Part shown: one piece after another, positions 57,252 through 63,800 of the stretch | Position numbering within the stretch: the stretch's first letter is position 1 | How the letters are laid out: each line of letters opens with the position of its first letter | Origin: Auriscalpium vulgare | Lineage: Eukaryota > Basidiomycota > Agaricomycetes > Russulales > Auriscalpiaceae | Reading direction: 5' to 3' | DNA length: 64,000 bases | Assembly: GCA_019915015.1 (NCBI GenBank) | Contig: JAHBBC010000012.1 | Location: forward strand, 1,364,001-1,428,000 | Translations under genes and position numbers: made by a program | Notes under the pieces: model-generated | Seen by the model: the letters and a program-made list of their open reading frames with translations, nothing else | Databases searched by the model: none | Told to the model about the DNA's origin: nothing

Positions 57252-59054
57252 GCGGATGCAAATGATCACCGGTCGCCGAACTGCACCCGAATGAACCTGG
57301 CAGGGCCCTGCTATGTAATGCCGAGTTTGTGTCCCAACAAACGGGGGATATGTCTGGAGAACAGATGACCTGGAAAGCGTGTAGACTCGTAACCACTCTG
57401 TCTCAGCGACACTTGGGCATGGGGAGGACGCCCCTCCACCTTTCAAGTCGTCAGGCAGACGGTCACCGGTCTAGAAAGCGTGTGGATAACGGTTTCCAGG
57501 GTTGTGGTGGGAGAGCTATGGGCCGCAGGGGAGACCCGTGCTGCGCACCCCGACGCGCTGCGCGCGTCGCGCAACGCGCCCCGGCGAGAGACTCGGGCTG
57601 GCGGGTCAGAAACGACACGCCCGAGCTCGCGGCACAAAATCCCTCGAGCTGCAAGCACAGGGAGGCCCCTCGAAGCGAGAAACGCGGAACGAGGTACCAC
57701 CTGAGCAAGCGCTAGGGGTTGGTGGGTGGGTCAAAACGCGCGCGGGCGCGCGACGAAGTGGGGAGAGTGCGACGAGCGTGGGAAGCTCGCTCTGCACCTC
57801 CCGCCGCTTTCTGCCGGCGCCCAACTCAGTTACATAGCCTCCGTAAGAGGCCCCGCCTCGCAAGCTCGGCTTGCCTCTTGCCCCACGTTCGTACAGAGTC
57901 TAGCTACTACAGCTGCAACTGTCCTCGAACCTCGCCATCCGTCCTCTGCACGATCGTACTCGAACGGCCGGCCGTAGCAGGCATGTTGGCTGAAAGTGCG
58001 CGTACGGGCTGCTCGCGCTCAGTTTGATTCCGCATCGGTAAGTAGGAAAAGTGCGGAAGTCGAGTGAAGGCCCGACGTCACCGGTCACCGCGAGTGGGTA
58101 CGTAATCCCATCCGCATGGCGAGGAGTGAAACAGCCCTGTATTGCACAGACATGTCCATGGGCAACGAGGTCGGCGGTCGGCTGGCGGGGCTGGCGGGGT
58201 GCTGGCGGGACGCTGGCGGGGCTGGCGGAGGCGGGTCCCAGACGCAGGCAGGTCCGATAGATGGAAGTAAGTGTGAAGAGCGTGATCGGTAATATAAGGA
58301 GAGCACTACCTGAGAGACAAAAGGAATCCGCACTGCGGTGTGGGTGTAGGTTGTGCGAGTCAAAGAGAAGAGTGTCTGTCCACACGTCGAGCTATTTAGA
58401 CTGTGAGTCGCCACGGAGACATCGTAACGTCTTTTTCACGCCTCAAGGCTGTGTTCTCTGTGAGACGGTGGCATCTGCCTCAAGGTTTCTAGGTGCCCGT
58501 CTTGGGGTGAGATTCACATTGGTTGCCTTTGGGTACTTCGACGGCCGATGCGATGTGAGGAGAGGATGGGAGGGAGGCCGGCTGTGAGTGCTGTCCTTCT
58601 TCTTGGACGTCGCGTATTCAATTTCGAGTTGGCGTGAGGAGCGCGGGTCAATGACAACATCGACAAATCCGTTTGCAGCGAGCTGGAGTCCCATTGGACG
58701 GGTTTGTGCACGACCCGCGTCTCAATATCGCACCAAAGCAAAGCCTGATGCTTTCCTTCGTCGCCCAAGCAATTTGTGAGCGCTGTTGCATTATTGCGAA
58801 GGACACCTGGTGTACCGCCTTTTGTGTCGTCGAAAGCAACCCCTGGCCTCTCAGGAGGACGCGGGACACTCGTAGCACAGCATCGTACGTTTCTTTTCGC
58901 CTTGTCCGGTATTGTAAACTCTCTGTCCTGTTCAATTTGCCACAATCGAACGCCGACTAGCCCTTGAGTATCTAAGGTATGTTCGCGTTACGTTTTGTCG
59001 TATGTGCCGATGACACACGGTGTACAAGGTCAGCAACGCGATAGAGCATTAATG
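57252..59054. other. 1.8-kb gene-poor interval with short GC-rich repeats
   Basis: No supportable gene. It contains GC-rich sequence at 57540-57760 (gcgctgcgcgcgtcgcgcaa) and, at 58185-58240, about five imperfect copies of gctggcggg. Open frames are short and overlap in several frames. Confidence 0.5.
58185..58240 (+). repeat. Tandem gctggcggg repeat
   Basis: About five imperfect 9-10-nt units (ggctggcgggg, tgctggcggga and similar) in a gene-free interval. Confidence 0.8.
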
Positions 59055-59225
59055 GCGGCGGTTCGCCATGGCTGAGGCGAGCAAGCTGTTTGGCCAACCT
59101 GGTGGGGCGAGTGGCACGGCCTTGACGGTCCTGAAGCTGCTCGTGCTTGCAAGTGCGCAAGTGTGCAAGTGTGCAAGTGCAAGTTCGCTGGTGGCAGGCT
59201 GCAGCGGCCTTTGACTTTGGGGCTT
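59055..59225 (+). pseudogene. Relic of the Gly-rich DUF7721-like gene
   Basis: Sequence such as atggctgaggcg-gcaagctgttt and tgacggtc-tgaagctgctcgtgc is shared with the last long exon of the gene at 53758 (54477-54600), but about 35 nt in the middle and all upstream exons are missing. It then decays into a repeated gtgcaagt motif (59155-59180). No start codon or continuing frame, so this is a fragment, not a gene. Confidence 0.8.
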
Positions 59226-59489
59226 GCTGTCTTCGTCGCAGGTTAACCTAGCTTGGCCGTCAGATGCGTTGCAGACGAGCATGGCATTTTGATTCATATT
59301 GGAGCACAGGCCGGGTATACGCAAAGATTGTACTGTACAGTGGGATGTATTGAATTGATACAGAAGCATAAGTTAGCATGATAAAGACGACAGCGATACA
59401 GTATGGCAAGTGAGATAAAAAAGAGTAGGATGTGCATCGGAAGGGGAACATGGACACAGAGAGAACAGCGCATGGGGATCATAATCAAA

Positions 59490-61609
59490 TCAAGTCAGGT
59501 CTTCCTCCTTCACGCACCAGGCCAAATCCAACGAAGACGATTTGACGCTGCGCGGGGATGACGAGTCCCTGTCATCGCCGACATGCATACTTCGTGCGAA
59601 ACATGTCGCTGCAGTTGCAGTATCGCGTCTTCCGTGGAAGTATAGGGGTTGTTCTGAGAGATGCGGTGGGGATGAAGGAGGGGTTTCCAGTTCACGCATA
59701 GGCGAGTCGGGGCTGCGAGACGATATGGAGGCGAGTGAGGGCGTGCGCGATACACTGCTGCGTGGGGAGGACGATACGGACGAAGGGGTCCGTGGATGAC
59801 CGCGATCCATTGAGTCGGCGTCAGCCACCCGCACGACTGGCTGGCGCCTCTTTGGCAGGGCTGCCATTTTCCTTCGTGGAGCAGTGAGACTCGCTTTGGT
59901 GGGAATCGTCAGCGCAAGCGACGGTTTCTCCACATCGACCGGCTGCATTCTGGGTGTGCTGGACGGTCCTGAGGGTGCTCGTGCGGTTGCCCGCCCAGAG
60001 ACAGTCTGAGCGCTTCGTGGCGAAGCAAGTGGTGGGACAGCCGTCGACGGAGGAGGTAAACTCCGACGTGCTGGACTTGGGGGCGAGACCATCGTAGGCC
60101 GGGGGATGGGCGACGGGCTGCCAGGTTCTTCCTTCCATGTGGACGTCATGCCAGCAGACGTCGCCACGGCGGAAGAATTGGGACTATGCGCTCGGCTCGG
60201 CTCGTGTCGATTTCCTGGCGGAGGCATGGGGGACAGGGTGGGGTAGGTTTTGGCCGGCGGGACAGACGGCTTTCGCACACGGTTAGGCAATGGCGCAACT
60301 CTGCGCCTAGTAGTAGAGGACGCGTCCGATGGGGGCTGTGAGAACTTGACAACGACGTTAGTATCCACACCTTCAGACATATAGCGAAGAGCTCACCAGA
60401 GTATTGGAAGGACCAGCCAGAGAGACCGCCGGAGTTGAAGGCGCGCTCTTCGCTGCTGGCATAAGAGCAAACATAGGCGCTCGTGCTGCGCGGAGAGGAG
60501 CGGTGGCTCTGGGGCGTCCAGTCTTAGTGGCGTTGTCGCTAGGCACGATTCGCATCCCGTTGAAGGCATCCAACATTGACACGACATCGTGGCTAACTTT
60601 CGGCTTCGACACGTGATTTAGGGGATGGGATAGTCGAGGAAGTGGGCGATGGGAATCATGCTCTGCGTCACTGTTCGGGGGATAGCATACGGGGAAGCTG
60701 TGTATAGGTGCGCAGCAGCTGGAAAGATCGACAGTTGCGGCACAGTCGCCGAACTACAAAATTCGGGAAATGAGCATGGCGGCAAGATCAAGATGACTGC
60801 GTCCTCACCAGCGCCAGTGTCGAGGGTTCAGCGGCGGGAGGTATTTCCTGGGATGCCACACGAGATAGAGGAAGAATGGACGCTGTGGTAGTTGCATCCG
60901 TATTATCCTCTATCCGTGCCACAGGGAAAGACGTGACATTGTGCTGTGTGATTGGGTGTGAGTCGAGTAAGTGATCATTGAGCCAACCTTGATCACGCAC
61001 CGATACTCTAAGTTGTCTTGACCACGGGCTTTGTATCAGAATGCAGTCATCGCGTTCATCGTCTACGCTCTCCTGAGGTGACAGCGTCAAAAGATGTCCG
61101 ATGATATGATCCTTGGTACTCACCTCGATGCCCGGGCGCAATGGATGTTTGAACAAAGGCATTGACGGAGAGTGTGTAGAGTGAGCCAACCAGGTAAGGG
61201 AGAGGTCTACAACATGCGACGTCCATGACTGCAACGTTTTTTTGTAACGCAAGACAAATGTAGCTTCAAAGTGTTGTAGAATGTCCTCCGACGCCTGACC
61301 CGGCGTACTAATAGCCATCAAAGCAGCCGCAGAACGCGTAAATTGAGGTTCTGAGTGAGCCTTGAGACGATGGGCAGTTTTGATGTAGATCTCCGAGAGA
61401 CGCGAGGCAAGGTGTGGGCCGATTCCGATAGCCCGCAACGAAGATGCGAGGGGTGTGGGTTCTGGAAAACGGATGCTCCGGGATTGCGAAACGCAAGTAG
61501 CAGCTCCATGACAATTGCTTGTAGTAGACCGACGAAGTCGAAGAGCGTGATCGAGTATGCTCCGGAAAAGGTCGGCTTCTTGTGTACGGTGATGCGAGGG
61601 CATGGCCAA
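59490..61609 (-). CDS. HD2-like mating protein lacking a recognisable homeodomain
   Basis: Divergent partner of the HD1 gene. Exons 60809-61609, 60397-60753 and 59490-60344 join in frame (introns gtgagg...ttgtag, 55 nt, and gtgagc...tcaag with a perfect tactaac branch site, 52 nt) to give about 670 residues. The N terminus, MAMPSHHRTQEADLFRSILDHAL with LASSLRAIGIGPHLASRLSE, IYIKTAHRLKAHSEPQFTRS and ILQHFEATFVLRYKKTLQSW, has the helical pattern of the HD2 dimerisation/specificity region. The homeodomain should follow, but residues about 150-215 (PLFKHPLRPGIE, then ERDDCILIQSPWSRQLRVSV) contain no WFQN helix. At best this is a badly degraded homeodomain; SRQLRV may correspond to PRQIEV. The last two exons are Pro/Ser rich and basic, with possible nuclear signals (RRRVAPLPNRVRK, RRKMAALPKRRQP), ending CVKEEDLT-stop. 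Call by position plus N-terminal resemblance. Confidence 0.65.
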
Positions 61610-61808
61610 TGGACTCGGACTCGATGATGGTGTGCGGGGACAGGGAGTGGGGACGCGCTCTTCAGTTCGGCATCGTGGGAATCCATACTATTTGGTTCCA
61701 CCAACAATCCATTGTCCTACGTAAGCAAACGGACAGCCATTGTCTCGCCTTGTACAAATTGCGAATGCACCCACATTGTCAACTTCATCGACCACCCACG
61801 CTCGCAAC
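61610..61808. promoter_or_regulatory. Divergent HD2/HD1 promoter with ATTGT/ACAAT words
   Basis: 199 bp separate the two start codons. The sequence holds an inverted pair ACAAT-cc-ATTGT at 61704-61715 and two further ATTGTC words at 61739-61744 and 61775-61780. ACAAT is the core bound by HMG-box factors, which control mating genes in several fungi; use here is inference. Confidence 0.5.
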
Positions 61809-63800
61809 ATGCCTTCCCGAAACTTCCGGTACGAACTCACGCAGGTCAACTCAGACTTCCTCCTCGCCATGACACAGGGCCCGGCTGCTCTCGAGCGTTT
61901 TCAACAGAAATGGAGCCAACTGTGGCGAAGCGTCAAAAAGGCCGCACAACACGGCCTTCTGGACGACGCTGCATTATCCCTTGCCTCCACCTCTTCCAAG
62001 AACTTGGAGATTCTTGCTCAATATTTCCTTGAAACAACGACCCTTGCCGACGAAATCTCTTCGTCTCTTCGCCACACCGCCCTCCAGAACCTGTCGGGCT
62101 GCGACGCCCAAGCGACCTCCCACCCACAACAAGTCAGCGGCTCCGTGAAGCCCTTTTTCAAAACTTTTCCTTCCCCAAATGGCGACGTTGATGACGCGGT
62201 CTCGCCATCGGCGTACCCATGGTTGATGAAGAATTTACACAACCCTTATCCATCCCTCAGGGAGAAGGACGAGATGGCGCAATTGACGGGGCTTCCTGTT
62301 GCGTCCGTGGATGCGTGGTTTCGCTCAGTCAGGCATCACATTGGATGGACGTCGCTGTGCCAAACCCATTTCGCAGGATCCCCCTCTGCCACCATCTACG
62401 CGGCTCGCCTTGCCTACTTGGATGATGGAGTGGGGTTGTCGGCCGATGTTGTCTTCGACTTCAACATCGTGAAGGTACATGCAGAGACCTTGTACGTCGG
62501 TATAGGCCCCGACTCGGATGCTTGTGGCGCCGATGTGGCGGGCGTATATGCCACGGATACGAACCCCTCCCCTCCCCTTCTTGACCAGCACGCGACCCCT
62601 CTGGATGTTGACAATGATAACGTGGAAGAGGAAGATACAACGCCTCCCCCACCTATCGCCGGTACGAAAAGGCGTGCGACAGAGGACCCAGCAACCGCTT
62701 CAAGTATTGACTCGAGATTGTCAAAACGTACAAGGTACGCACCAGCAGATCGTGTATTCTGCCTCCGCTCAACGTCTTTTAGACTTAGTCCTGCTCCATC
62801 TTCGTCCGTTACTTCATCGCCCTGGTCGCCGTCCAACTCTACCTCATTTCAATTCATTGATCCCTGTGCCACCGTCTCGTCAACCTTCTCCCCGGCAATA
62901 CCTGCCTTGGCAGATATGCAACTCTCTGCAACGACCATTGATGCCAGTGCAGGTGCTTTCGCGTCTGCGTCACTGGTTTCGGACGTCTCTATTCGTCCAA
63001 CAGAGGCAGCCCAATACAGTCCGACTGTGTTAGGAAAGCGCGCCGCGTCTGATTCGGATCCAGGTCGCCAGGCGAAACGCGTGCATATCCTTCATGGCGT
63101 CGACGAATCCCCCTATCCCTCGTTGCCCATGCCAACGAGCTCTCTGCTAGCTAGTCCTGGCTATCGACCCTCTGCTCCCCTTCCGGATCCAAACCCCGAC
63201 CCCGCGCACGCAACTTTCCTTGCTTTGGACCGCACATCTGGCTACGAGGGTGCGAGCTCATCCCTTTCCGAATTCGCATTCGTGGACAATATTGTGCGCA
63301 CCGAGGATGCCCCACCTGGTACGCTGTTACGCGCTATCCCCGCGTCATTCAAGCTCATCTCTGCTTCAGAGGCGACTAGTCCACACGATACAGCGGTCGG
63401 CGACCCATTGTCACCACTCTCCACCGATCTAGCAGATGAAACAGGACTACGCTCGTTGGACGACTTGTTCCAACTTTCTCCAGACGAATCATTCTTCCCG
63501 CCATATAACGACTTTGTGACCTCGACGGAGGAGATTGATTGGTCTTCCTTTGATGAGTTGATACGCTCTACGTCTCTTTCCTCGGGGTCATCATCACCAT
63601 CACTCTCTGCCTCCAGTGTGGCATCGCCTCTCAGTGACTCACCTTCGCCTTTTGGCGATCCATCCTCTTTCGATTTGTTACTCCGTGAAGAGGGCTCTTG
63701 TGCTCACGACGAACTTACATCCTCCCTCCCTCTCGACGTTGGCGTCTGTGACGCAGAACAGTTTAACCTATGGGCTTCAATTTTTGACACTTTAGCATAA
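61809..63800 (+). CDS. HD1: HD1 homeodomain mating-type protein
   Basis: HD1 proteins pair with HD2 proteins of another allele to switch on dikaryon development. The start MPSRNFRYELTQVNSDFLLA (61809; a 23-codon longer frame begins at 61740) leads into the helical specificity region: AALERFQQKWSQLWRSVKKA, SKNLEILAQYFLETTTLADE. Residues about 130-190 form the atypical homeodomain: AYPWLMKNLHNPYPSLREKD, EMAQLTGLPVASVDAWFRSV, then RHHIGWTSLCQTHF. It has the loop NPYPS, WF in helix 3 and the GW that follows in HD1 members. A bipartite nuclear signal (TKRRATEDPATASS...SRLSKRTR, about 300) and a long Ser/Pro-rich, acidic tail follow. A 48-nt segment (62735-62782, gtacgc...tttag) could be an intron; it has no stop and keeps the frame. 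About 660 residues, ending 63800. Confidence 0.93.
   Translation: MPSRNFRYELTQVNSDFLLAMTQGPAALERFQQKWSQLWRSVKKAAQHGLLDDAALSLASTSSKNLEILAQYFLETTTLADEISSSLRHTALQNLSGCDAQATSHPQQVSGSVKPFFKTFPSPNGDVDDAVSPSAYPWLMKNLHNPYPSLREKDEMAQLTGLPVASVDAWFRSVRHHIGWTSLCQTHFAGSPSATIYAARLAYLDDGVGLSADVVFDFNIVKVHAETLYVGIGPDSDACGADVAGVYATDTNPSPPLLDQHATPLDVDNDNVEEEDTTPPPPIAGTKRRATEDPATASSIDSRLSKRTRYAPADRVFCLRSTSFRLSPAPSSSVTSSPWSPSNSTSFQFIDPCATVSSTFSPAIPALADMQLSATTIDASAGAFASASLVSDVSIRPTEAAQYSPTVLGKRAASDSDPGRQAKRVHILHGVDESPYPSLPMPTSSLLASPGYRPSAPLPDPNPDPAHATFLALDRTSGYEGASSSLSEFAFVDNIVRTEDAPPGTLLRAIPASFKLISASEATSPHDTAVGDPLSPLSTDLADETGLRSLDDLFQLSPDESFFPPYNDFVTSTEEIDWSSFDELIRSTSLSSGSSSPSLSASSVASPLSDSPSPFGDPSSFDLLLREEGSCAHDELTSSLPLDVGVCDAEQFNLWASIFDTLA

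Follow-up and report, generated by a model that had tools for sequence, protein, structure and literature searches.

An open gene in the HD2 position beside a mushroom HD1 gene has no detectable homeodomain

In the mushroom A-locus switch, the homeodomain of the HD2 protein is treated as the essential DNA-binding half. As outlined in PMC3140503, HD2 proteins bind DNA strongly and HD1 proteins bind it weakly and contribute nuclear signals and an activation domain, the usual division being that HD2 binds and HD1 activates, and the account of Coprinopsis in PMC8545103 has DNA binding by the heterodimer require the HD2 homeodomain. Tolerance of a defective homeodomain has been reported for HD1: in the sections of PMC4101180 on HD proteins, the tetrapolar Pycnoporus is described with a degenerate HD1 homeodomain and an intact HD2, no HD1 motif could be found in Postia, certain exchanges in helix III of HD1 are tolerated elsewhere, and a defective HD1 homeodomain need not end function where HD2 works. 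Erosion of HD2 has been reported as pseudogenisation or disruption, as for the truncated extra HD2 (xHD2) of Trichaptum (in the account of PMC8970355) and the disrupted HD2 of Microbotryum superbum (PMC12510652), the latter source also mentioning that some bipolar systems are accompanied by loss or disruption of HD genes.

The locus described here resembles those of Pycnoporus and Postia in being a mating pair with open frames and a defective homeodomain, but in those species, as far as PMC4101180 treats them, the defect lies in HD1 and the HD2 of Pycnoporus is intact, whereas here the domain is gone from the gene in the HD2 position. With Trichaptum and M. superbum it would share the erosion of an HD2 gene; pseudogenisation or disruption is reported there in the relevant parts of PMC8970355 and PMC12510652, whereas the gene found here is full-length, open and common to two lineages. 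In the literature searched, which included few subscription journals, no report of such a homeodomain-less gene in the HD2 position was recognised and no paper on the mating behaviour of Auriscalpium was found.

The window, that is, the whole stretch of 64,000 nucleotides that was analysed, corresponds to C12:1364001-1428000 of an assembly of 51.6 Mb in 96 contigs, and the features of the locus are collected in Table 1. The HD2-position gene stands head-to-head with HD1, whose identity is given by Pfam, with 205 bp between both start codons, and thus holds the position divergent from HD1 that an earlier note on this DNA had described. The same note had read it as a three-exon frame of about 670 codons. 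This frame is indeed open, at 665 codons, and its openness is common to the homolog in A. vulgare, but the A. vulgare protein model (P0001) indicates five exons and 629 aa as the likely product. The two extra introns are indicated because P0001 is without the corresponding residues; both stretches are in frame with good splice signals, and the gap in P0001 opposite the second is slightly longer than the 57-bp stretch itself. Together, introns 1 and 2 bracket the expected place of the homeodomain, the comparison being by place and not by exact codon.

Table 1. Features of the HD1/HD2-position locus (window coordinates).
Feature	Coordinates	Strand	Remarks
HD2-position gene, exon 1, start codon and N-terminal, probably dimerising region	61124..61603	-	ATG at 61603; P0001 begins with identical MPSHHRTQEA
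HD2-position gene, intron 1, 51 bp	61073..61123	-	in frame, GTGAGT..CTCAG; residues missing from A. vulgare model
HD2-position gene, exon 2, 24 codons	61001..61072	-	expected HD2 homeodomain place, without homeodomain likeness
HD2-position gene, intron 2, 57 bp	60944..61000	-	in frame, GTGCGT..CACAG; taken as coding in the earlier note; missing from A. vulgare model, in which the exact donor is not checkable
HD2-position gene, exon 3	60809..60943	-	
HD2-position gene, intron 3, 55 bp	60754..60808	-	
HD2-position gene, exon 4	60397..60753	-	
HD2-position gene, intron 4, 61 bp	60336..60396	-	
HD2-position gene, exon 5 with stop codon, C-terminal region	59490..60335	-	stop codon ends at 59490
Common upstream region between divergent start codons, 205 bp	61604..61808		
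HD1 gene, Mating_N and Homeobox_KN	61809..63800	+	probable in-frame 48-bp intron, 62735-62782
HD1 TALE (KN) homeodomain match	62220..62333	+	C12:1426220-1426333
HD1 Ser173 codon	62325..62327	+	homeodomain position 51, normally Asn

When the products of the HD2-position gene were searched against Pfam, none of its three ORFs matched any family at E<=10, and the search was equally empty for the 648-aa product obtained by taking out three introns and for the 394 aa of the N-terminal part obtained by taking out four; P0001 is likewise without a Pfam domain, homeodomain included. The earlier note had reported no WFQN-type recognition helix on either strand, and this held, as the motif WF.[NSDH] was absent from all six frames of the gene, with FFCNAR on the plus strand as the one loose match.

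A homeodomain split by introns was sought in an intron-aware scan of positions 57400-61808 on both strands, in which GT..AG joins of 40-150 bp and unspliced ORFs gave 6,811 peptides. The best of them scored 10.3 bits against the homeodomain profile, compared with 7.4-10.8 bits in ten shuffles, whereas four homeodomains of this genome that are split by introns and had no part in the profile, taken as positive controls, reached 30.3-42.0 bits (C12, 33.9 and 30.3; C7, 42.0; C50, 40.8). An earlier run of this kind on the gene had given 7.5 bits against 4.5-10.2 in its shuffles. Two-intron joins, assayed over 59490-61808 with stricter splice signals, introns of 45-80 bp and no positive control (338 peptides), gave at best 5.1 bits, with 1.8-5.7 in ten shuffles. 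The shuffles permuted base pairs in blocks of two and match the composition only roughly, and the scan profiles miss the TALE homeodomain of HD1 itself (9.0 and 9.5 bits), so that these scans probe for a homeodomain of the classical kind that would be expected in HD2. A missed exon or intron-split homeodomain is unsupported by the one- and two-intron scans, and by the A. vulgare ortholog as well.

Among the matches listed, relatives of the HD2-position gene and of HD1 were found only in Auriscalpium vulgare (Russulales), where both are annotated as hypothetical proteins, FA95DRAFT_1330489 (P0001, 611 aa, E 2e-170 against the HD2-position gene) and FA95DRAFT_1675197 (P0002). Identity amounts to 494 of 605 aligned residues (81.7%) for the HD2-position protein and 520 of 634 (82.0%) for HD1, making this an ortholog pair, and it has the same lack of an HD2 homeodomain, with 21 residues in A. 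vulgare for the 24 of exon 2 at the expected place. The absence is thus unlikely to stem from a faulty assembly or from one broken allele.

The motif SRQLRV, in which the earlier note had seen a remaining resemblance to the recognition helix, was initially attractive as a homeodomain fossil since an intron directly follows it. Against the HD2 helix of Pleurotus, quoted as RQIEVWFQNHR in PMC10739230, it scores 4, at rank 19 within the protein (P 0.035 for a random 14-mer); extended across the intron, it scores -13, at rank 133 of 607. With three of its residues missing in P0001, it was dropped as insignificant and incomplete. A likeness of the intron to the Trp48-codon intron of other homeodomain genes in the genome was left aside as well, since the two positions differ by one base. 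Those genes form a multi-copy family in which the intron splits the Trp48 codon after TG (L004-L014, L045, L046 and L048), spread over C4, C1, C10, C63 and C22, with near-identical copies on C4 and C63.

AlphaFold models, built from two-sequence alignments with a mean pLDDT of 37, were used as a contrast only. In the P0001 model, helices extend up to residue 139 and none are found beyond, whereas the HD1 model of equal depth has three helices (133-142, 150-160 and 164-187). In Foldseek, no match listed for either model had an E below 0.001; TALE homeodomains were the best PDB matches of the HD1 model among the best 50 of 274, weakly (best E 0.07), and no homeodomain appeared among the best 50 of 84 matches of the P0001 model. 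These data confirm that the HD2-position gene is open and spliceable and carries no detectable homeodomain, as the earlier note had proposed for the HD2 partner. As the feature that defines HD2, a classical homeodomain with WFxNxR in helix 3, is missing both here and in the A. vulgare ortholog, the gene is classed as one without homeodomain that occupies the HD2 position and probably derives from HD2, and not as a member of HD2.

The HD1 partner has a recognisable TALE homeodomain and yet departs from the norm. Its homeodomain matches Homeobox_KN with 40.7 bits (E 2e-10, cut-off 24) and remains above the Pfam cut-off in P0002, and its Mating_N match is barely above the cut-off of 21.4 (21.7 bits, E 2e-4), P0002 matching this family only at E 0.47. 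In an alignment with homeodomains of solved structure, its helix 3 is WFRSVR, compared with WFQNxR, and thus has Ser in place of Asn51; in P0002 it reads WFRSVM, with the identical Ser51, Met for Arg53 and the next two residues also changed, so that the HD1-class WFxNxR with Asn51 is found neither here nor in A. vulgare. Of the residues concerned, Asn51 makes contact with a base of the DNA and Arg53 with its backbone. In Schizophyllum, the homeodomain of only one partner is reportedly essential (Luo 1994), and in Ustilago both are said to be critical (Schlesinger 1997). In the C-terminal coding region of HD1, 60 bp (window 63123-63182) match C5:713727-713786 at 93%.

These observations bear on the suggestion of the earlier note that the dimer would bind DNA through HD1 only. 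The locus would then still control mating, the pair dimerising and contacting DNA via the TALE homeodomain of HD1 alone, in reversal of the usual division. Such an arrangement would be helped by an HD1 homeodomain that scores over the Pfam cut-off in both sequences and has a predicted three-helix fold, and by two genes that remain open, but it presumes a normal HD1, yet Asn51 is replaced by Ser in both sequences and, in A. vulgare, Arg53 by Met together with two adjacent changes, and HD1 proteins are in any case described as weak DNA binders in PMC3140503. We consider this unlikely, and a loss of the mating role, which the earlier note had offered as its other possibility, would fit the two sequences better.

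The pattern of differences between both orthologs points to continued constraint. Single-frame similarity picks up again after all gaps (8/8 for the HD2-position protein, 7/7 for HD1), and with 111 and 114 amino-acid differences, respectively, the frames contain no stop codons, compared with 4.2 and 5.1 expected in the absence of constraint (P 0.014 and 0.006), an estimate that comes from one pair of protein models, in which frame shifts would show as loss of similarity and not as gaps. Within residues 321-360 of the HD2-position protein, all 39 aligned residues are identical to P0001. Residues 241-400 (within window 59490-61072), a stretch without known domain, are the best conserved of this protein (146 of 157 identical). 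As both frames are kept, something probably still selects for both proteins. A young relic, in which function was lost recently and the locus is drifting with frames that are open by chance, would agree with the loss of DNA-contact residues from both partners and with P values that are not overwhelming; against it stand the 82% identities, with frames common throughout, and the conserved blocks, and we regard it as improbable.

In the surroundings of the locus, a Peptidase_M3 gene at C12:1481380-1482865 (ORF from 1480447), about 53 kb from the HD pair, is taken as MIP by family and place, and with this assignment the HD locus is linked to MIP. The assembly has one copy of the HD locus, which was considered and dropped as evidence of homozygosity, since the neighbouring regions are single too. 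Between HD1 and the M3 peptidase gene lie three direct copies (82.7-84.9% identical) of a unit of about 6.9 kb (C12:1429124-1450762, L015-L017), with one inverted copy beyond the peptidase gene (C12:1483945-1490739, L020-L021); by eye, some of its ORFs resemble pieces of ABC transporters.

Further to the right, two adjoining genes whose homeodomains are both interrupted by an intron occupy C12:1509707-1512502 (L023), at a distance of about 82 kb from HD1 and 26 kb from the M3 peptidase gene. Their WFQN helices are intact, and they do not form an HD1/HD2 pair. On C66, C12:1500984-1512671 and 1523031-1528000 recur in a copy of 99.7-99.9% identity (99.7% over 11.7 kb), which is without, at C66:45110-45116, the element of about 10 kb found at C12:1512671-1523031 (L023-L024, L026). 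This element has LTR-like direct repeats of 300 bp and, by eye, ORFs like reverse transcriptase; it looks like a retroelement that one of two haplotypes or copies has and the other lacks.

The earlier note had also allowed for a second pair with a normal HD2 near the window, and none was found, either across C12:1354001-1508000 or in 31 of the 36 genome-wide PF00046 matches. To the right (C12:1428001-1508000), the best scores were 11.5 and 10.5 bits, from one Arg/Ala-rich and one Ser-rich peptide, with no WF helix, and in C12:1354001-1428000 the best was 10.1 bits, compared with up to 10.2 bits in same-profile shuffles from the HD2-position region. In the scan of C12:1354001-1428000 the profile gave 35.3 and 32.2 bits for two positive controls and missed HD1 (8.3) and the homeodomain match on C15 (L049, 6.5); TALE-like or atypical homeodomains could thus escape these scans and are covered partly by the whole-genome Pfam searches. 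There, PF05920 had two matches, of which one is HD1 and the other, on C3, a general gene without mating signature; Mating_N had a single match, and HD1 itself, when searched against the genome, found only itself and no second HD1. The first ORF of the HD2-position gene found itself and three matches at E 1.8. HD1 is row 28 of the PF00046 matches, and no helix resembling that of Pleurotus HD2 was seen in the 31 rows read, which leave out C39:59935 and four on C66 and include L009, L010, L013 and L014 as judged around helix 3 only.

These searches weigh on the more ordinary possibility that a normal HD1/HD2 pair exists at another place in the genome or dropped out of the assembly, the present locus being a decayed paralogous sublocus. 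Sets of several HD genes occur in many Agaricomycetes, Trichaptum has a truncated extra HD2 in the account of PMC8970355, and the atypical match on C15 (LNNWFRNRRK) is not resolved in its upstream part; nevertheless, the single Mating_N match, the HD1 search that returns only HD1, the non-mating character of the other KN match, the PF00046 rows read and the lack of a further homeodomain near MIP, by a profile that misses TALE types, all speak against it, and we give it little credence.

The descent of the HD2-position gene has to be judged by its architecture, because no similarity to any known HD2 was found among the matches listed, in a search that requires common 5-residue words. With HD2-class proteins of Agaricomycetes (Coprinopsis, Agaricus and Pleurotus) it shares the divergent orientation from HD1 and a long C-terminal region; its N-terminus, of similar length to theirs, is helical in a low-confidence model, and two introns lie, by place, where they would be expected, whereas these proteins have a classical 60-residue homeodomain with WFxNxR and no detected sequence similarity to it. 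That an unrelated gene came to stand head-to-head with HD1 would account for the missing match and for the lack of a significant vestige, but would leave to coincidence its place and orientation, its modelled helical N-terminus of about 140 residues, comparable with the helical 130-150 residues of HD2 proteins in section 3.4 of PMC8305134, and two introns whose place corresponds to that of introns 1 and 2 of HD2, which split the homeodomain in Flammulina and Coprinopsis (as given in PMC3140503). This origin seems very improbable to us; place, linkage to MIP, modelled helical N-terminus and intron places suggest that the gene probably descends from HD2.

The explanation that we prefer, at even confidence, is that of a retained HD1/HD2-derived pair without canonical DNA recognition, probably outside mating-type control. 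The HD2-position gene would descend from an HD2 mating gene and be maintained, having kept its N-terminal, probably dimerising region and its long C-terminal region and lost the homeodomain, and HD1 would have kept its N-terminal domain and TALE homeodomain fold while losing the base-reading Asn51. Both proteins may still pair through their N-termini. The canonical switch should not work, as the strong DNA-binding half is gone from one partner and Asn51 from the other, and with HD2-led DNA recognition control of mating type would presumably be lost too. Mating type might in that case be set by the pheromone/receptor locus alone, or selfing might bypass its control. Genes for STE3-type pheromone receptors are present in the genome, several of them on C30; the cluster at C30:227361-284291 is in part copied near-identically at C76:19403-39621. 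The proteins of the pair may have been kept for another task, such as recruiting or blocking other regulators; more specifically, and only tentatively, they could form a conserved dimer without canonical DNA recognition that acts as a co-regulator by recruiting or blocking other transcription factors.

Such a pair would serve as a natural test of which parts of the HD proteins stay once DNA recognition goes, and of whether they have any role other than in setting mating type. If the co-regulator reading were true, this would be a mating switch re-used after giving up DNA reading, rather than a pair of pseudogenes.
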